From: Prevotella sp.
GTDB lineage: Bacteria; Bacteroidota; Bacteroidia; Bacteroidales; Bacteroidaceae
DNA: 47,468 nucleotides
Direction of reading: 5' to 3'
NCBI GenBank assembly: GCA_017545045.1
Contig: JAFYDA010000037.1
Span: 1-47,468, forward strand
Below, piece after piece: positions 272 to 45,581 of this stretch (its first letter is position 1; every line of letters starts with the position of its first letter). A program made the position numbers and the translations under genes. The notes under the pieces were generated by a model. That model saw nothing but the letters and a program-made list of their open reading frames with translations, did not search any database and had not been told where the DNA came from.

Positions 272-282
272 CACCCAAGAAA

Positions 283-322
283 GTGAAGAGTGAATAGTGA
301 AGAGTGAAGAATTTGCTACCGC
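283..322 (+). repeat. half-copy of the GAAGAGT palindromic repeat, in the metY leader
   Basis: A run of 7-bp units related to GAAGAGT is followed by GAATTTGCTACCGC. This matches one arm plus the edge of the central segment of the full palindromes at 10537-10654 and 43033-43144. It lies in the 5' untranslated leader of metY. Unlike the coding copies it carries no TTA variant in the arm. Confidence 0.8.
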
Positions 323-8646: not shown

Positions 8647-11600
8647 CTACTCTTTCACTTTTTTACCTTTTACCCGCTCTTCGATGGTCTGGAAGATGAC
8701 GAAGAGGACGGGGACGATGAACAGCAGGGCGACGGTGCCGATGACCATGCCACCGATGGTGCCTACGCCGAGAGAGTGATTGCCGTTGGCACCGACGCCT
8801 GTGGCAAGGGCCAGGGGCAGGAGGCCGAAGACCATCGTGAGCGAGGTCATGAGGATGGGGCGCAGGCGGACGGCGGCTGCATCGAGGGCAGCGGCGACGA
8901 TGCCCATACCCTCGCGGCGGCGCGTCGAGGCGTATTCGGTGAGCAGGATGGCGGTCTTCGACAGCAGACCGATAAGCATGATGAGGCCGGTCTGCATGTA
9001 GATGTTATTCTCCAATCCCCACATCCACGCGAAGAGGAACGAGCCCGCCAGGCCGAATGGCACGCTGAGAATAACGGCGAAGGGGATGAAAAGGCTCTCA
9101 TAAAGGGCGCAGAGGATGAGGTAAACGAAAACCAAAACCAAAACGAAGACCAGTGCGGTGGTGTTCTGGGCCGATGCTTCCTCGCGGGTCATCCCGCCGA
9201 ACTCGTAGCCGTAGCCTTCGGGTAGCACGTCGGCGGCCACCTCGCGGATGGCATCGATGGCCTGGCCGCTGCTGTAGCCCTCGGCGGCGGTGCCTCCCAC
9301 CTGGATGCTTGGGAAGAGGTTGAAGCGCGAGAGGGTCTCCGAACCGTAGACGCGGGTGAGCGTCAGGAACTGGCCGATGGGTGCCATCTTGCCTTTGTTG
9401 TTGCGCACGAAGATGTTGTTCAGCGACTCCGTGTCGAGACGGTACTCGGGCGAGGCCTGCACCATTACTCGGTAGAGCTTAGTGAAGCGCACGAAGTTGG
9501 AGGCGTATGTTCCGCCGACATATCCGCTGAGCGCGCTCAGGACGTCGGTCGGCGAGACGCCGCGGCGCTTGCACAGGGCGGCATCCACTTCTACGCGGTA
9601 CTGCGGGTATTTTAGCGAGAAGTTGGTGAAGGCGCGGCTAATCTCCGGGCGCTCGTTTAGGGCGGCGATAAGGCGGTTGGTGTAGTCGTAGAGCTCCTGT
9701 ATGGTGCCGCCGTGCTTGTCCTGCACGTGCAGCTCGAAGCCGTTGATGCGTCCGAAGCCGGGCAGCATGTTTTGCGTGTTCACTTGAATCTTGGCGTTGG
9801 CGATGTCGGCCGTGCGGCGATAGATTTCCTGCACGATGCTCTGGTCATCGTCGCCCTTGCCCTTGCGCTCGTCCCAACGCTTCAGCTTCAGCGTGAAGTT
9901 ACCGTTGGACGACGACTGTTCGAAGCTGTTAGAGTTGCCGGCGATGAGCGAGTAGATGCGGAGTTGCGGCAAATCTTTGATACGGGCCTCCACCTCTTTT
10001 AATATATGGTACGTCTGCTGAAGACTGCTGCCGGGCGATGCTTGGACGTTGATAAAGACCGTCCCCATGTCCTCGTTGGGCACCAGTCCGGTTTTGGTGG
10101 TCTTCATCAGCCAGCCGAGGGTGACGATGGCGATGGCTACGAGGCCGACAGCGATGGCCTTGCGGTTGATGAAGCGGGCGACGAGGCGGCGATAGCGGGC
10201 AAGGACGGCGGCAAAGAGAGCGTCGAAGCGGGCGTGGATGCCGGGGCGGGGGGACGAGGCGGTCCCGACGGGGGAACCGTCGGGCGCGGTTGAGCGGGGC
10301 TTCGTCATGATGTCGGGCGCGGCCGAGCGGGGCTTCATCATGATGGCGGAGAGGGCGGGGGAGAGTGTCAGCGCGTTGAACAGCGAGATGGCGACGGCGA
10401 TGGCCATGGTCACGCCGAACTGCGTGTAGAACGTGCCGGTGACGCCACCGATGAAGCAGACGGGCACGAAGACGGCCATGAATACCAACGTGGTGGTGAT
10501 GAGGGCCGACGTGATGTTCTTCATGGCCTCTTCTGTAAGTGAAGAATGAAGAGTGAAGAGTGAAGAATTTGCTGCCGCCATTCCTTCTGCCGTTCTTTCC
10601 GTGCCAACCTGCCCGGTAGGAAATTCTTCACTCTTCATTCTTAACTCTTCACTTTTTTCAAGCCTTGCTTGAACCGCCTCTACCACCACGATGGCATCGT
10701 CCACCACTGTGCCAATGACCAGCACGAGGGCGAAGAGCGTCAGCATGTTGAGTGAGAAACCGATGGCATAGATGACGGCGAGCGTGGCGACGAGCGACAC
10801 GACGATGGCGATGGCAGGGATGATGGTGGCACGCCACGAGCCGAGGAAAATCCACACCACGAGGATGACCAGCAGTAGGGCTTCCAGCAGCGTTTCTACC
10901 ACGCTGGCGATAGAGGCGTCGAGGAAGTCCTTCTTCGACTCCAGGTCCTCAATCACGATGCCCGGCGGCAGCGACTGGCGTATCTCCTCCACCTCGCGGT
11001 CTATCTCCTTGATGATCTCGTTGGCATTGGAGCCCGCCACCTGGTTGATGCTGATGTTCACACCGGGCCGTCCGTTGGTTTCACCTATTATATTATAGTT
11101 CTGTGAACCCAGCTCCACGCGGGCAATGTCACCGATGCGCAGCACGTCGCCGTTGGGCAGCGAGCGGATGACGAGATTGGCATACTCCTGTTCCTCCTCG
11201 TAGCGTCCGCGGTATTTCAGCACATACTGGAACGTGTTCTCGCTCTCGGCGCCCAGCGTACCCGTCGCCACCTCCACATTCTGCTCGCTCAGCACCTGCA
11301 TCACGTCCGCTGGCGTCAGGCCGTACTGCGCCATCTTCAGCGGGTCGAGCCAGATGCGCATGGAATAGTCGGCACCCATCACGTTCACCTCGCCTACGCC
11401 CGGTATGCGGCTCAGCCTCGGTTCAATGTTGATCTTTGTGTAGTTAGCCAGGAACGAGCGGTCGAAGGTCGAGTCCGGCGAGTAGACGGCAATCTGTTTG
11501 ATGTTTGAGGTCTGGCGCTTGCGCACCGTCAGGCCGCTCTTCACCACGTCGCTCGGCAGTCGGCCCTGCACGGTGGCGGCGCGGTTCTGCACGTTCACCA

Positions 11601-11913
11601 TCGCCATGTTCGGGTCGGTGCCTTGACGGAAGAAGATACCTATCGAAGCCGTGCCGTTGTTTGAGGCTGACGACGTCATGTACATCATGCCCTCCACGCC
11701 GTTGATGGCCTCCTCCAGCGGCACCACCACGCTCTTCTGCACCGTCTCGGCATTGGCACCGGTATACGATGCCATGATGCGCACCGTGGGTGGTGCTATC
11801 TCTGGAAACTGCTCCAGGGCGAGCCGCGTGAGGCCGATGATGCCCATCAGCACCATCAGCACGCTTATCACTCCGGATAATATCGGGCGGTCAATAAATG
11901 TCCTAACGTTCAT
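8647..11913 (-). CDS. RND multidrug efflux pump, HAE1 family (AcrB/MexB-like)
   Basis: A 1088-aa inner-membrane proton/drug antiporter, somewhat longer than the family's usual 1030-1060 aa. It begins MNVRTFIDRPILSGVISVLM and has the TM4 proton-relay aspartates in GTVVDDAIVVVEA, two porter halves and about 12 membrane segments. The extra length is explained by two inserts. One is an in-frame palindromic repeat (10537-10654) just after VVVEAVQARLEK, giving SEELRMKSEEF through NSSLFTLHSSL. The other is a 33-bp duplication near 10281-10346 (KPRSAAPDIM, KPRSTAPD). Both lie at cytoplasm-facing or loop positions where family members tolerate change. It follows the adaptor gene by 60 nt in an operon. 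No TolC-type channel gene is present. Confidence 0.95.
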   Translation of the reverse strand: MNVRTFIDRPILSGVISVLMVLMGIIGLTRLALEQFPEIAPPTVRIMASYTGANAETVQKSVVVPLEEAINGVEGMMYMTSSASNNGTASIGIFFRQGTDPNMAMVNVQNRAATVQGRLPSDVVKSGLTVRKRQTSNIKQIAVYSPDSTFDRSFLANYTKINIEPRLSRIPGVGEVNVMGADYSMRIWLDPLKMAQYGLTPADVMQVLSEQNVEVATGTLGAESENTFQYVLKYRGRYEEEQEYANLVIRSLPNGDVLRIGDIARVELGSQNYNIIGETNGRPGVNISINQVAGSNANEIIKEIDREVEEIRQSLPPGIVIEDLESKKDFLDASIASVVETLLEALLLVILVVWIFLGSWRATIIPAIAIVVSLVATLAVIYAIGFSLNMLTLFALVLVIGTVVDDAIVVVEAVQARLEKSEELRMKSEEFPTGQVGTERTAEGMAAANSSLFTLHSSLTEEAMKNITSALITTTLVFMAVFVPVCFIGGVTGTFYTQFGVTMAIAVAISLFNALTLSPALSAIMMKPRSAAPDIMTKPRSTAPDGSPVGTASSPRPGIHARFDALFAAVLARYRRLVARFINRKAIAVGLVAIAIVTLGWLMKTTKTGLVPNEDMGTVFINVQASPGSSLQQTYHILKEVEARIKDLPQLRIYSLIAGNSNSFEQSSSNGNFTLKLKRWDERKGKGDDDQSIVQEIYRRTADIANAKIQVNTQNMLPGFGRINGFELHVQDKHGGTIQELYDYTNRLIAALNERPEISRAFTNFSLKYPQYRVEVDAALCKRRGVSPTDVLSALSGYVGGTYASNFVRFTKLYRVMVQASPEYRLDTESLNNIFVRNNKGKMAPIGQFLTLTRVYGSETLSRFNLFPSIQVGGTAAEGYSSGQAIDAIREVAADVLPEGYGYEFGGMTREEASAQNTTALVFVLVLVFVYLILCALYESLFIPFAVILSVPFGLAGSFLFAWMWGLENNIYMQTGLIMLIGLLSKTAILLTEYASTRRREGMGIVAAALDAAAVRLRPILMTSLTMVFGLLPLALATGVGANGNHSLGVGTIGGMVIGTVALLFIVPVLFVIFQTIEERVKGKKVKE
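10281..10346. repeat. 33-bp tandem duplication inside the RND pump gene
   Basis: Segments 10281-10313 and 10314-10346 are near-identical and encode, on the minus strand, two copies of an 11-residue unit around KPRSxAPD. It lies after the SPALSAIM membrane segment, in the loop leading to the second half of the pump. A GC-rich stretch next to it (10240-10280) also looks like inserted low-complexity sequence. Confidence 0.8.
10537..10654. repeat. full GAAGAGT palindromic element inserted in frame in the RND gene
   Basis: The left arm (10537-10570) and right arm (10621-10654) are imperfect inverted copies of 34 nt built from 7-bp GAAGAGT-like units and ending in GAATTT. Between them is a 50-nt centre whose inverse resembles the centre of the copy at 43033-43144 (starts CCTRCCGGG, ends GGCGGYAG). 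The element adds about 36 residues in frame to the pump. On the coding strand, the arm read as GTGAAG carries TTA in place of the expected TGA. Confidence 0.88.
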
Positions 11914-11922
11914 ACTCCTTTA

Positions 11923-11994
11923 TGCGGTAGCAAATTCTTCACTCTTCACTCTTCACTTTTCATTCTTCACTCTTCACTTTTCACTTTTCACTTC
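11923..11994. repeat. half-copy of the GAAGAGT element between adaptor and pump genes
   Basis: GCGGTAGC followed by AAATTCTTCACTC and many 7-bp units matches the edge of the centre plus one extended arm of the full palindrome. It fills the gap between the RND pump start (11913) and the adaptor, and runs into the adaptor gene: read on the minus strand it encodes VKSEK and the TGA stop of the adaptor. No TTA variant is present. Confidence 0.85.
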
Positions 11995-13083
11995 TATTCC
12001 CTCCTTCAGCAGTCCGGCACCCTCGGCGATAATCGTGTCGCCCGCATTCAGACCTTCTTCAACGATGTATTCCTTCCCGTTGTTCTGCGGGAACAACGTG
12101 ACGGCAGTCGCCTTCGTCTTGCCGTCAACGATGCGGTAGACGAAAGAGCGGTTTTGCAATTCGTAAGTAGCTTCCTGAGGAATGACGATGCACTGTTGGC
12201 GGTGTGTCGGAACAACCACCGTGGCACTGCCACCGTTATGAAGCAGTCCGCCCACGTTAGGGAACGTAGCGCGAAGTGTCACGGCACCCGTCTGCGCGTC
12301 GACGGTTCCGCTGACGGCACTGATGCGCCCCTGTTGACTGTACTCCTGACCGTTGTTCAGTCGTAGACTCACTGCGGGGGCTTTGGCGATAAAATCGTTA
12401 ATGGAGCCGTATTGTGCTATCAAGTCCTGCGCCTGGCTCTCGCTAATGCTGAAGTAGACGTACATCTCCGAGTCGTCGGCCACCGTCACCAGCGGTTCGG
12501 CGATGCTGCTGCTGACGAGCGACCCCACGTGCCATGGAATCATCGACGCCACGCCGCTCACGGGGCTTTTTACTTCTGTATAGGAAAGATTATTGCGGGC
12601 ATTCACCTCCTGCGCCTTCGCCTGAGCCAGCGAGGCTTCTGCCTCATACAGCGCGTTGCGCATGGTCTCGACGCTGACTTCGCCCACGACATGGCCCTGC
12701 TTAAGCAGTGATTCGTTCTCATAGTTCATCCTCGCCGTCGCCAGCCGTGCCTCCGCGCTCTTCCGCGCCGCCACCGCCACTTCCAGCGCCGCCTTGAACG
12801 GCACCTGGTCGATGACGAACAGCGTCTGCCCCTTGCGGACCGCCTCGCCTTCGTTAATACATATCCGCGTGATAGTTCCTGCCACCTGTGGCCTTACCTC
12901 CACAATCTGCCGCCCCGTCATGCGTGCCGAGTACTGCCGCGAGAGCGACATATCCTTCCGTGAGACAATCATCGTCTCATATTTCGCCGCGTCGTGGGCC
13001 TTTCTTTTTTCCTCGCCGCACGCCGCAACGAGTAGGCCGGCCATTGCTGCTGCAAGAACTTTTATACCTAATATTCTTTTCAT
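11974..13083 (-). CDS. RND efflux periplasmic adaptor lipoprotein (AcrA/MexA family)
   Basis: A 369-aa membrane-fusion protein that links the pump at 8647 to an outer-membrane channel. The signal peptide MKRILGIKVLAAAMAGLLVA ends in a lipobox with C22. Residues about 60-95 and 165-200 form the split lipoyl domain (GTITRICINEGEAVRKGQTL, NLSYTEVKSPVSGVASMIPW), separated by a coiled-coil hairpin (about 95-160) and followed by beta-barrel regions. The last residues, EVKSEK, and the stop codon are encoded by a dispersed GAAGAGT repeat (11923-11994), so the native C-terminus may have been altered. It is the first gene of the adaptor-pump operon. A weak -7 box (TATTTTTG) lies on the minus strand at 13119-13112. 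Confidence 0.93.
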   Translation of the reverse strand: MKRILGIKVLAAAMAGLLVAACGEEKRKAHDAAKYETMIVSRKDMSLSRQYSARMTGRQIVEVRPQVAGTITRICINEGEAVRKGQTLFVIDQVPFKAALEVAVAARKSAEARLATARMNYENESLLKQGHVVGEVSVETMRNALYEAEASLAQAKAQEVNARNNLSYTEVKSPVSGVASMIPWHVGSLVSSSIAEPLVTVADDSEMYVYFSISESQAQDLIAQYGSINDFIAKAPAVSLRLNNGQEYSQQGRISAVSGTVDAQTGAVTLRATFPNVGGLLHNGGSATVVVPTHRQQCIVIPQEATYELQNRSFVYRIVDGKTKATAVTLFPQNNGKEYIVEEGLNAGDTIIAEGAGLLKEGIEVKSEK

Positions 13084-42426: not shown

Positions 42427-44133
42427 TTATTTGCGCACGCCGAAGTTCTTGCGCGATTCATCGTTGATGATGCGGGCGGCCTGGCGGCCGTCGAAGCGGG
42501 TGGGCTCGATGATGAACTCGGGCACGTTGAAAGATAGGAAACGTTCGCGATAGAAACGGCGCGGATTGCGCTGCGGCAGCATGAAGGCTTTAGAAACTAC
42601 GCCACTGGTATCGACATGACAGAAATAAGGTCGTGTAAACAGACCATCGTCGCGGCGGGAACTGAAGACGAGCCAGCGGGAGTTGGTGCTCCAGTTGTGG
42701 AACGACTCCGTGTCGTCAGAGTTAGCCTCCGTCATGGGACGAGCGACAGCCCCTTCTACGGCTCCCGAGGGGGCTTCATTGCTTTGTTGGGCACTTGTGT
42801 CCCCATTGGGGGACGACAGGGGGGTTATCCAGAGGTCGGCCTCATGGTGCCAGATGCTGAACTGTCCGTAGTCGGAGAGCGTGTAGCAAAGGAAACGTCC
42901 ATCGTAGGAAGGGCGGGGGAAGGACACGGACTTGTGTTGCGACGCGGCATCGATGACGGTCTCTATATGGTCGCCATAGGTTCCCGTGGCGGGATCGAAA
43001 TCAATGCGGTAGAGATTATAGCGGAGGTTGTTAAGTGAAGAGTGAAGAGTGGAGAGTGAAGAATCTCCTGCCGGGTTCCCTATAGGTTCCGATGCAGGAA
43101 CGGCGGTAGCAAATTCTTCACTCTTCACTCTTAACTCTTCACTTAAATGTGCAGCGCAGAAATAGAGCGAACGGCCATCGGCAGAAAAGACAGGGTAGGT
43201 CTCGTAGATAGAATCCTGCTTGAGAAGCGGCGTCAGTAGCAGCTCGTTCTTCTCAATGTCGTAGATCTGTATGTCGGAGGCGGTGTCGAAGACCTCGATG
43301 CGGTTGGAGTCGGCACTATGGAACAACTGTTGTGTGGTGTTGGTAGAATAGGCGATATAGCGGCCTGAGGGGTGCCAATAGGGATAGACGCAGAGGCCGA
43401 GGGTCTCAGGGGTCTTGGTGTTGTAGGCCGTCGGGGATTGCAAATTCCCTCCAACAGAGTTTTCTCCAACGGAATTTCTTCCAACAGAGTGACGCAACAG
43501 CGTGGCGCCGTGAGGGCCGCGGATGTGTAGGCTCATGTCGGCAGGGTTGCCGCGGTTGAAGCTGTGGCAGTTGACACAACCCTCGAACTGGGTGTTCTCA
43601 ATCAGCGCACGTTCGTCGAACGAGGAGAGGTCGCGCTCGTAGATGCCCATCTTGCTCCACACCTCGTAGCCTGGCGCAATCAGACGGTAGCAGAGACCGT
43701 AGTCGATGCTGTCAGGACTGACATAAATAGAGAAAGGACGATAGGTGTGCCAGCCGTCATCATACTTAGCTGAGACGGTGACGCTGAGCGAGTCGCCGCC
43801 GTTCTGGGCGAGCAGCGCGTGCCAGTCATCAATGTCGAAGTCGACGGATTCCTCACCCTGGCTGTGCAGGCTGTTTCCGTGGCCGTCCGTAATGACGGCA
43901 TCGATGCGCTGACATTGATCTTTGACCATTGACCATTGGCCATTAACCATTGTCTCGTCGGCCATGCTGAAGTTGAGCGGCGCAATGTTCACGGGTATGG
44001 TGACGCCGACGTAGTCAGGATAGATCTGCGGCTGCGTGGTCTCCTGCTTGGCATCGCCGACCGTCTCCGTGCAAGCGGCGAGGAAAAGTAAAAAGGAAAA
44101 TAGGTAAAAAGGCAAAATCGTATTCCGTTTCAT
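42427..44133 (-). CDS. CxxCH haem-motif PD40 propeller lipoprotein, copy 2 (repeat-laden)
   Basis: A 568-aa exported lipoprotein with lipobox LAAC (C21). After a beta domain (about 38-170) comes CVNCH (186-190), a c-type haem attachment motif, and a conserved methionine at 200 (ADMSLHIRG) that could be the distal ligand. Then PD40/TolB-like propeller blades follow (WHPSGRYIAYSTN, FSADGRSLYFC, PSYDGRFLCYTLS, WSTNSRWLVFSSRRDDG). Compared with copy 1 at 45611 it has four extra in-frame segments: residues 62-73, 214-230, 331-369 and 440-466, each made of a different low-complexity or dispersed repeat. Its ATG overlaps the stop of the upstream DUF6057 gene (ATGA). Electron transfer or sensing at the envelope is possible but unproven. 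Confidence 0.82.
   Translation of the reverse strand: MKRNTILPFYLFSFLLFLAACTETVGDAKQETTQPQIYPDYVGVTIPVNIAPLNFSMADETMVNGQWSMVKDQCQRIDAVITDGHGNSLHSQGEESVDFDIDDWHALLAQNGGDSLSVTVSAKYDDGWHTYRPFSIYVSPDSIDYGLCYRLIAPGYEVWSKMGIYERDLSSFDERALIENTQFEGCVNCHSFNRGNPADMSLHIRGPHGATLLRHSVGRNSVGENSVGGNLQSPTAYNTKTPETLGLCVYPYWHPSGRYIAYSTNTTQQLFHSADSNRIEVFDTASDIQIYDIEKNELLLTPLLKQDSIYETYPVFSADGRSLYFCAAHLSEELRVKSEEFATAVPASEPIGNPAGDSSLSTLHSSLNNLRYNLYRIDFDPATGTYGDHIETVIDAASQHKSVSFPRPSYDGRFLCYTLSDYGQFSIWHHEADLWITPLSSPNGDTSAQQSNEAPSGAVEGAVARPMTEANSDDTESFHNWSTNSRWLVFSSRRDDGLFTRPYFCHVDTSGVVSKAFMLPQRNPRRFYRERFLSFNVPEFIIEPTRFDGRQAARIINDESRKNFGVRK
42736..42816. repeat. in-frame insert 4 in copy 2 (SSPNGDT...APSGAVEGA)
   Basis: On the coding strand this encodes SSPNGDTSAQQSNEAPSGAV then EGAVA, absent at the matching place in the paralogue at 45611. 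The DNA contains a GTCCCC/GGGGAC hairpin and runs of C and G, unlike the surrounding coding sequence. It lies between propeller blades. Confidence 0.7.
43033..43144. repeat. full GAAGAGT palindromic element, in-frame insert 3 in copy 2
   Basis: Left arm 43033-43066 and right arm 43110-43144 are inverted copies built of 7-bp units, with a 43-nt centre starting CCTGCCGGG and ending GGCGGTAG. It encodes SEELRVKSEEFATA through SSLSTLHSSL in frame. The paralogue at 45611 has a much shorter, unrelated segment at the matching place (PEEMRDKDIRITYPKIQ). The sense-read arm carries TTA where the plain unit would read TGA. Confidence 0.88.
43444..43494. repeat. 15-bp tandem repeat, in-frame insert 2 in copy 2
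   Basis: Three units of a 15-bp repeat (TCCAACAGAGTTT-like on the plus strand) encode HSVGRNSVGENSVGGN. The paralogue has no counterpart. It lies between the haem-motif region and the first propeller blade. Confidence 0.85.
43915..43951. repeat. 7-bp GGTCAAT repeat, in-frame insert 1 in copy 2
   Basis: On the coding strand it is a run of GGTCAAT-type 7-bp units encoding MVNGQWSMVKDQ. The paralogue at 45611 passes directly from the NFML segment to PAGEYEACV here. The same family is longer in the neighbouring DUF6057 gene at 45231-45313. Confidence 0.85.
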
Positions 44134-45581
44134 TGCTTACTGGAGGTGTGTTGTAGTAATTGGGTGTATCTTTCGCGGTCGCCCGTCAGCATATAGTAGG
44201 CTATCAGATACTGATAAGCCAGCCGGTTGTCCTTGTTGCCGAAGTAGAGGCTTTCCAGCATCTCTGGTGTCGTATGGTCGCTGAAGTAAAATTCATCCTT
44301 GTAGGCCCACTGACGCAGCCGTCCGTATTCAGGATGCCGGGCTATTGCCTCCTCATTGCCCAACAGCGGCAGCGTCTCGTTAGCCCAGTCACGGTAGAAG
44401 AGGGTCTTCTGCAGCGCGGTGAGGTATTTGCGAGCCACCTCATAGTCGCCGTTGATGAGGTTGGTCTCTGCCAGTCGTTTGTAGCACCGGCCGCTTTTTT
44501 GGAAGTCAAGAATGGCTTCCTGCGCCTCGAAGACCGTACGCTGGGCGACATTAATCATGCCCAGCTGGTAGAACGCCTCGGCAGTGGGCAACGGACTGGT
44601 CGCATCGGTGTTGACATCGGGCAACAGGCCGACAATGCCGTTCTGGTTATAGTCGAACATGTGCTCCAAGAGTAGATTGTGCATCGCCAGGGCCAGATTC
44701 TGTACTGTCACACCTATCTGGTTGTTGGGCTTCTCGTTGTTGATGGTTTCCAGGATGCGGTTCCATTGCTGGTAGCGGGCCATGAAGTCGTACTGCATCA
44801 CTCGTTCGGCTTTGACATTTGCGTTTTTCCAAATGAGAGCCCCCGTGACAAGCATAACCAAGATATAAGATATCAAAGGAAAGAGGAATGCAGCATGAGC
44901 ATACTTGGCGGAAGAGGTACTCTTTGGCTCCTTACCTCTAACAACAAACCACATGACAAGCGGGATGATGATGGCGGAGAACCAAGCTACATAGAACAGG
45001 GTAGGGAAGGTGTTCGGGATACGATAGTAATGGCTGCCACCGTAGGCTATCCAATAGAGTACGGGAACGGAGACCATAAACAGGATGAGGCGCCTCCATC
45101 CGTCAGTCAACCGGACAAGTCCATAGAGGACGAGCTGGGTGAGCAGGACCGCCCAGACAGTGCCCAAAAGGGCATTCTCGTCGAGCAGGAAGAGCCAGAG
45201 CAGGATAGAAGGTACATAGGTCAGGCCGTAAGACCATTGACCATTGACCGTTGAGCATTGACCATTGACCGTTGAGCATTGACCATTGACCGTTGAGCAT
45301 TGACCATTGACCAGTCGAAGCGTTAGGAGCTGCACCGCCGAAAGCAGCAGTGCTATGATGAATGCGCCTACCCAAGCATAGAGGAAGAACTGCGTGCAGA
45401 AGCGGCCCAACAGGTCGGCCACACCACCGGGCTGCTTGATAATCTCCCACACGTAATCGTTGTCGAAGAGGAACAGCTGATACTGCTCCTGATAATGCAG
45501 ATGGTGCGGATAGGCCAGTCCGAAAAACAGAAAGACTGCCAAACCGAAAAGCAACGTGAATAAAAGATGTAAATGCTTCAA
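44130..45581 (-). CDS. DUF6057-like membrane protein, copy 2 (TTG start, repeat insert, short C-terminus)
   Basis: A 483-aa inner-membrane protein. About seven hydrophobic segments fall in the first 275 residues (LLFTLLFGLAVFLFFGLAY, YAWVGAFIIALLLSAVQLL, LFPLISYILVMLVTGALIW), followed by a soluble helical, TPR-like region (about 280-483) with GMINVAQRTVFEAQEAILDF. The start is TTG at 45581 (KHLHLLFTL follows); no ATG is in frame upstream before a TAA. A 7-bp repeat encodes three VNGQCST heptads (residues 91-117) between the second and third membrane segments. The C-terminal extension seen at the end of copy 1 (47156) is missing. Its stop overlaps the next ATG, so it is coupled to the copy-2 PD40 gene. 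Confidence 0.8.
   Translation of the reverse strand: MKHLHLLFTLLFGLAVFLFFGLAYPHHLHYQEQYQLFLFDNDYVWEIIKQPGGVADLLGRFCTQFFLYAWVGAFIIALLLSAVQLLTLRLVNGQCSTVNGQCSTVNGQCSTVNGQWSYGLTYVPSILLWLFLLDENALLGTVWAVLLTQLVLYGLVRLTDGWRRLILFMVSVPVLYWIAYGGSHYYRIPNTFPTLFYVAWFSAIIIPLVMWFVVRGKEPKSTSSAKYAHAAFLFPLISYILVMLVTGALIWKNANVKAERVMQYDFMARYQQWNRILETINNEKPNNQIGVTVQNLALAMHNLLLEHMFDYNQNGIVGLLPDVNTDATSPLPTAEAFYQLGMINVAQRTVFEAQEAILDFQKSGRCYKRLAETNLINGDYEVARKYLTALQKTLFYRDWANETLPLLGNEEAIARHPEYGRLRQWAYKDEFYFSDHTTPEMLESLYFGNKDNRLAYQYLIAYYMLTGDRERYTQLLQHTSSKQ
45231..45313. repeat. GGTCAAT 7-bp tandem repeat inside the DUF6057 gene
   Basis: About twelve 7-bp units (GGTCAAT, GGTCAAT, GCTCAAC in a 21-bp higher-order pattern) encode VNGQCST heptads. 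Near-perfect identity of the 21-bp units shows recent expansion. It is the same family as 43915-43951 in the next gene. Confidence 0.92.

Follow-up and report, generated by a model that had tools for sequence, protein, structure and literature searches.

The stretch of DNA analysed here, referred to as the window, is contig JAFYDA010000037.1 of a Prevotella sp. assembly (GCA_017545045.1; 47,468 nucleotides), and it carries two long palindromes, each lying in frame within a protein-coding gene. The first host gene (8647..11913, minus strand) encodes an RND efflux pump of the AcrB type (PF00873; ACR_tran, E 1.8e-293), and its palindrome occupies positions 10537..10654 of the minus strand. Direct reading of the sequence gives a length of 118 bp, from the first base of AAGTGAAG at 10537 to the last base of CTTCACTT at 10654. 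The second host gene (42427..44133, minus strand) encodes a PD40 / WD40-like beta-propeller repeat protein (E 1.6e-9), with a second full palindrome in frame at 43033..43144 (minus strand). RNA folding yields -50.9 kcal/mol (z -6.8) for the pump copy and -60.6 kcal/mol (z -9.8) for the PD40 copy, and in neither case did any of 200 shuffles equal the value. Both copies are read through, as SEELRMKSEEFPTGQVGTERTAEGMAAANSSLFTLHSSL and SEELRVKSEEFATAVPASEPIGNPAGDSSLSTLHSSL, respectively. An initial annotation of the window had described a heptamer-built palindrome inserted in frame into the pump, with the same element in an unrelated gene; sequence, fold and second copy bear this out.

Both palindromes are made of one unit, a half element of 42 bp, (GTGAAGA)x4-ATTTGCTACCGC, found either singly or in inverted pairs whose tails face inward. 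The usual shape among the copies printed is AA followed by four GTGAAGA heptamers (the G is often A, and the TGA of unit 2 may be TTA or CGA) and ATTTGCTACCGC. In the pump, the half running in the direction of the coding sequence lies at 10613..10654 (minus strand; AAGTGAAGAGTTAAGAATGAAGAGTGAAGAATTTCCTACCGG), codes for SEELRMKSEEF and has TTA in place of TGA in its second heptamer. The reverse half, on the strand opposite to the coding sequence, lies at 10537..10578 (plus strand; AAGTGAAGAATGAAGAGTGAAGAGTGAAGAATTTGCTGCCGC) and gives the peptide ANSSLFTLHSSL on the coding strand. The two full copies of the initial annotation were confirmed, but two more places of the family had been overlooked: a solo half element at 281..322 (plus strand), upstream of and outside the open reading frame (ORF) 384-1673, and tandem heptamers with a half-element tail at their end (GCGGTAGCAAATTC...; 11922..11993, minus strand), directly upstream of the start of the pump gene and reaching into the end of ORF 11974-13083. 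The window contains 16 matches to GTGAAGAGTGAAGAGTGAAGA with at most 3 mismatches, compared with 0 expected, and has no Rfam match at gathering thresholds.

Comparison with orthologues revealed sites that lack the element. The pump segments aligned to CmeB meet at the insert, the first ending at query 428 (CmeB 432) and the second starting at query 462 (CmeB 436). The pump site spans 285 nt in the window versus 192 nt in six orthologues and 198 nt in three, so that the 118-bp element brings a net gain of 93 nt. That is 31 residues rather than the roughly 36 first estimated. The PD40 site spans 390 nt in the window versus 303 nt in six of the eight closest orthologues, a net gain of 87 nt for a 112-bp element; of the remaining two, one has 321 nt and the other 348 nt with a different insert. 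The element is absent from all eight and from most of the pump orthologues examined, and the insert is thus not a universal part of either protein. In both window hosts about 25 nt of the native linker are missing. The initial annotation also placed the insertion within a conserved segment; the interrupted stretch proves to be variable itself, with the conserved parts on either side, and across the aligned host families the copies occupy variable loops or linkers. At the pump site, a full copy is present in the window genome and in RUG195 (L186), degraded remnants are present in genomes G059 and G007, and a different repeat family is found in G022 and in a distant G057 homologue; the heptamer family is absent from the site in the other pump orthologues examined. 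A separate 33-bp tandem repeat at 10279-10349 gives the pump extra residues that are missing from the orthologues L186 and L082. Locus L119 was tried as an insertion in common with the window PD40 protein and was rejected, as the alignment shows the site of the window element empty there. In the pair L200 and L219, compared for an empty site, a stretch of about 119 bp adjoining the element has also diverged.

The element is widely dispersed, and further copies outside the window are numerous. The window genome (2.36 Mb, 134 contigs, 59% complete) gave 83 matching rows, corresponding to about 40 distinct places after overlaps were merged by hand. With two mismatches allowed, 37 of 80 genomes from the genus contain the core pattern, and the reversed core pattern, used as a control, gave at most one match per strand in any of the 80. 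A scan of named genomes yielded at least 116 stretches with the element, of which 80 are listed. The titles of the listed stretches are mostly Prevotella and Prevotellaceae, many of them ruminant-sourced, with some Bacteroidaceae or Bacteroidales, one uncultured bacterium and one Paludibacteraceae. The coding and frame counts below rest on these 80 loci, and the other 36 stretches entered only the search for longer relatives. Heptamer arrays might also arise as simple-sequence repeats by slippage, with no mobile element involved. That origin is exceedingly improbable here, and as a full account it is refuted: most copies printed have a fixed architecture of four heptamers and a constant 12-bp tail, dispersed copies have diagnostic variants in common, and inverted pairs and clean empty sites in orthologues occur, features that slippage alone does not produce.

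The 66 coding copies, pairs and halves together, fall into 49 host families, and the coding pairs printed measure 91-118 bp. Among ten hosts scanned, Pfam matches include beta-galactosidase, alanine racemase, outer membrane efflux protein, FGAR amidotransferase, glutamine synthetase, Mur ligase, CTP synthase and pyridine nucleotide oxidoreductase. Host L020 was the only one of the ten without a Pfam match at the threshold used, and we take it to be gamma-glutamyl phosphate reductase. At L036:1001-1044, a half element fuses a ClpB-like C-terminus to a Leu/Phe-tRNA transferase in a single ORF. CTP synthase, represented by 40 of 55 listed loci mostly selected for long frames, carries pieces of the heptamer family at two sites in six genomes and a second, GC-rich family in three, as judged by eye from the inserted peptides. 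This second dispersed in-frame family consists of GC-rich palindromes with peptides such as PPSxPEGG, SPLSFGEG and STPLPRREGQG. It occurs in the window at about 42735-42825 and at loci L060, L064, L085, L188, L388, L389 and L403, and it shares protein loops with the heptamer element in the pump, CTP synthase and the PD40-protein orthologues.

Coding use has left a mark on the element itself. An exact pattern with one base of the unit-2 TGA left free retrieved 83 half-element copies. Eleven of the 13 TTA copies lie forward in a gene and the other two at a contig edge. Six of the 70 TGA copies are at a contig edge. The remaining 64 comprise 29 read through in reverse and 35 without read-through, and not one of them lies forward in a gene. 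The other two forward frames are closed by the pattern itself; the frame, unlike the sorting of T and G, is thus partly a product of construction. Both arms of the L151 pair entered this count, and L200 and L219 share one insertion. A set of 258 elements gave one frame for forward halves in 13 of 13 and one frame for reverse halves in 24 of 31. Inverted pairs that are read through have a length of 1 mod 3 in 21 of 22 cases, compared with 12 of 27 other pairs. Counted by genome, in-frame read-through applies to 5 of 5 inverted pairs in the window genome, 5 of 10 in G059, 1 of 7 in G056 and 0 of 2 in G022, these genomes having been picked for their many listed matches.

Because seven and three are coprime, the heptamer array gives the same heptapeptide in every frame, only in another phase: SSLFTLH, free of stops, in reverse, and SEE-stop-RVK forward. 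The array peptide alone therefore cannot explain the frame bias. One reverse frame of the half-element tail holds a TAG, and the tail in this way explains the bias of the reverse halves in part. The element is in real coding use, and heptamer arrays are unusually easy to tolerate inside genes because their period is coprime with the codon. A reverse array is read without stops in all three frames in the sense of the coding sequence, and a forward array is tolerated once its single in-frame TGA has become TTA or CGA. The earlier suggestion was right in this part: the element is small, dispersed and adapted to coding DNA, and in principle it can be compared with the Rickettsia palindromic elements (RPEs). 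The encoded peptide probably has no function for the host. Conceivably the insert could remain untranslated, being cut from or bypassed in the mRNA in the manner of the intervening sequences (IVSs) that RNase III removes from rRNA. A long stem is predicted for both window copies, and the Coxiella IVS is reported to be excised by RNase III (PMC4990558). We consider this quite improbable, as the loss of in-gene TGA and the lengths of 1 mod 3 are needed only under translation, and an mRNA that was cut and not religated would be lost as a message.

When half elements facing inward at a greater distance were sought, 28 pairs emerged, ten of which were printed. Four of these are elements of 492-499 bp with inverted 42-bp ends and one ORF each of about 125 residues. 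A fifth holds the same type of ORF with an internal deletion, and the other printed pairs are without it. The ORF encodes an S23/IVP four-helix-bundle protein (PF05635, E 2.7e-23; TIGR02436, E 1.6e-27; nearest solved chain 2rld, E 2.6e-30), and the search for a longer parent yielded this S23 element and no transposase between the ends. That the ends of the palindrome also bound S23/IVP elements of about 495 bp is the new part of this work. Since the short palindromes share their ends with the S23 elements and have no gene, we take them as ORF-less relatives. We therefore propose, as the probable reading, that the insert is an ORF-less member, comparable to a miniature inverted-repeat transposable element (MITE), of a family of hairpin elements. 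The full-length form, of about 495 bp, would consist of two inverted 42-bp ends, each of four 7-bp repeats and a 12-bp tail, enclosing one S23/IVP gene. The dispersed, coding-adapted element of the initial annotation is retained in this proposal; the 42-bp half unit, the full copy and remnants at the pump site of relatives and the longer S23-bearing element had escaped it.

The association of S23 genes with flanking repeats extends well beyond the GTGAAGA family. Of 80 genomes of the genus, 69 have a PF05635 match, as against none of 14 control genomes. Around 71 S23 genes of the genus at 70 loci (40 loci from heptamer-bearing genomes and the 30 best-scoring from the PF05635 search), an inverted flank repeat scored at least 16 in 53 genes and at least 20 in 45, compared with 0 of 146 control genes at either score (Fisher 2e-35 at the lower one). 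Tandem arrays stand on both sides of 41 of the 71 S23 genes versus 5 of 146 ordinary genes, and 58 of the 71 versus 5 of the 146 pass either test. The repeat unit varies from one S23 locus to the next (GTGAAAA, TAGTTCA, GTTGAAC, AGTTGACG and others), and its length tracks the S23 protein: the nearest relative has an equal 7- or 8-bp period in 55 of 60 cases, and shuffles have a mean of 33.6, with 0 of 2000 reaching 55. This test left out 24 of 84 S23 proteins, whose periods were unclear or different, and used a period of 7 that we assigned to 13 plasmid S23 proteins. The pump loop in G018 and G033 carries four GNNNAGA units that resemble, by eye, the array of S23 locus L298. Heptamer arrays of another kind, GACCATT / CATTGAC, run in frame in the window at 45232-45313 (DUF6057 ORF 44130-45581) and at 43913-43952 (PD40 ORF), and are perhaps the ends of another S23 lineage.

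S23 genes match in 28 plasmid records. Fifteen loci were fetched (11 cyanobacterial; the rest from Bernardetia, Treponema saccharophilum, Monoglobus and Chlorohelix), and 14 of them reach a flank score of 16, versus 1 of 237 random windows. Two of the Nostoc elements take the place of host DNA, about 197 bp in one case and about 328 bp in the other; the latter element splits a DNA cytosine methyltransferase gene. No target duplication was seen by inspection at the two window sites or at these two Nostoc sites; host DNA is replaced instead. Several plasmid S23 genes adjoin defence genes (L348, L350, L351, L352 and L353), in positions between cas2 and cas1, between hsdS and hsdR, before cas1, between a helicase and an N-6 methylase, and between DISARM and BREX genes. 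In L343 (plasmid of Nostoc sp. UHCC 0870), the S23 flanks are near-perfect inverted repeats in which one unrelated sequence of about 28 bp interrupts the heptamers on both sides, as if the arms had been corrected against each other.

These flanks also bear on a reading in which the palindromes are an independent, RPE-like family of coding-adapted repeats, two of whose half elements once trapped the S23 gene as a passenger. The middle parts of the palindromes find no match in the S23 elements, and some genomes carry copies without a detectable S23 gene, as such a family would allow. The same kind of boundary nevertheless occurs, in several phyla, around S23 genes whose 7- or 8-bp units are wholly different, and a unit length that tracks the S23 protein is unexpected for a passenger; an independent origin is therefore rather unlikely. 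The tail offers another alternative, namely repeats of the type of repetitive extragenic palindromes (REPs) and bacterial interspersed mosaic elements, moved by a REP-associated tyrosine transposase (Y1). The tail GCGGTAGC has GTAG in many copies (GGTAG in the unit), and a Y1_Tnp match occurs in 47 of 80 genomes, including the copy-rich G059 and G034. The tetramer is inconstant, however (GTAG, GCAG or GAAG), and no Y1_Tnp match was found in G000, in G032 (97% complete, 18 pattern matches), in G035 (94%, 9 matches) or in G056 (62%, 39 matches). On the basis of the PF01797 search over the 80 genomes and the variable tag, this very unlikely explanation was set aside.

Several observations weigh against the assignment of the palindromes to an S23 hairpin family. 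All of the evidence is comparative, and no movement was observed. Copies persist where no S23 gene is detectable: G018 (90% complete) holds 21 pattern matches but lacks any PF05635 match, and the window genome (59% complete) has only a single weak one (E 3.7e-8). The opposite case is G028, with 15 PF05635 matches and zero pattern matches. The middle 25-34 bp of the short elements match the S23 elements over no more than 7-14 bp, so only the ends are common, and derivation by deletion does not follow from them. Both repeat tests failed for 13 of the 71 S23 genes, and 40 of the 70 S23 loci were drawn from genomes with the heptamer. Of the 49 inverted pairs, 27 lack read-through in a gene, and the pair is therefore not confined to coding DNA. 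The frame bias of the reverse halves may partly reflect the tail TAG, the two open frames being split 24 versus 4, and insertions shared by descent were not all collapsed in the coding counts. Target duplication was judged by eye, and target replacement could be insertion followed by deletion.

The proposed family resembles several known systems. The intervening sequences of 23S rRNA with an S23p/IVP ORF (Coxiella, Leptospira) are like the elements of about 495 bp in having an S23 ORF between terminal inverted repeats, an arrangement that the ORF-less window element lacks. The Coxiella IVS is reported to have 428 nt, a 28-bp terminal stem and tandem GACAGAT heptamers before the S23p start, and IVS stem-loops take the place of small rRNA-helix loops (PMC4990558). 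On that description, terminal stem, tandem heptamers and loop replacement are three traits common to the Coxiella IVS and the S23 elements found here. Unlike rRNA IVSs, the S23-bearing elements retrieved have other genes as neighbours, and the ORF-less form is found in frame within protein genes, with the window copies located in protein genes or beside genes. RPEs are described as palindromes of 105-146 bp in frame in unrelated, often conserved genes (PMC2229807, PMC10969869). The heptamer element agrees with these descriptions in being a palindrome of about 100-150 bp with a long stem, in frame in unrelated protein genes; by the same descriptions it differs in being built of heptamers with a fixed tail and in having longer relatives with equal ends that bear S23. 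Palindromic DNA in coding sequence is also known from the PARCEL palindromic amphipathic repeats (PMC2996958), but those are 25-residue tandem repeats in ORFs without assigned function, whereas single inserts in housekeeping enzymes are seen here. A short gene-less element with the ends of a longer gene-bearing one is MITE-like; unlike in MITEs, no transposase was found between its ends, and inspection showed no target duplication.

Dispersed tandem 7-bp units are also known from the cyanobacterial short tandemly repeated repetitive heptamers (STRRs) and from the TAACTGA repeats of Beggiatoaceae, and the arrays around the plasmid S23 genes look like these. The TAACTGA repeats are described as direct repeats that occur sporadically in Cyanobacteria and Bacteroidetes and have no evident mechanism of spread, and the terms S23, intervening and four helix are absent from the main text (PMC4679880). 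Literature searches, which did not reach the majority of subscription papers and preprints, listed no publication that links S23 with heptamer repeats as a general rule; among the papers listed, only the one on Coxiella joins the two.

The longer S23-bearing element with the same ends ties the palindrome to rRNA intervening sequences and to heptamer repeats. For its movement, we suggest that the S23 protein might bind the repeat hairpin and drive copying in trans, and that host repair or replication would join the copy into a gap. More broadly, and only tentatively, as a possibility somewhat short of probable, S23/IVP genes could be the sole gene of widespread transposase-free hairpin mobile elements with inverted ends of 7- to 9-bp tandem arrays, which insert by loop replacement into rRNA, proteins and intergenic DNA. 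The cyanobacterial and Bacteroidota heptamer repeats, rRNA IVSs and in-frame coding palindromes would then be three faces of one class. S23p proteins are reported to have no known function (PMC4990558), and a regular link between S23 and heptamer repeats would make both puzzles testable together. The common ends may link three unexplained bacterial repeats, and a coding-adapted element found in CTP synthase, alanine racemase and Mur ligase indicates that hairpin DNA can repeatedly rewrite protein loops.
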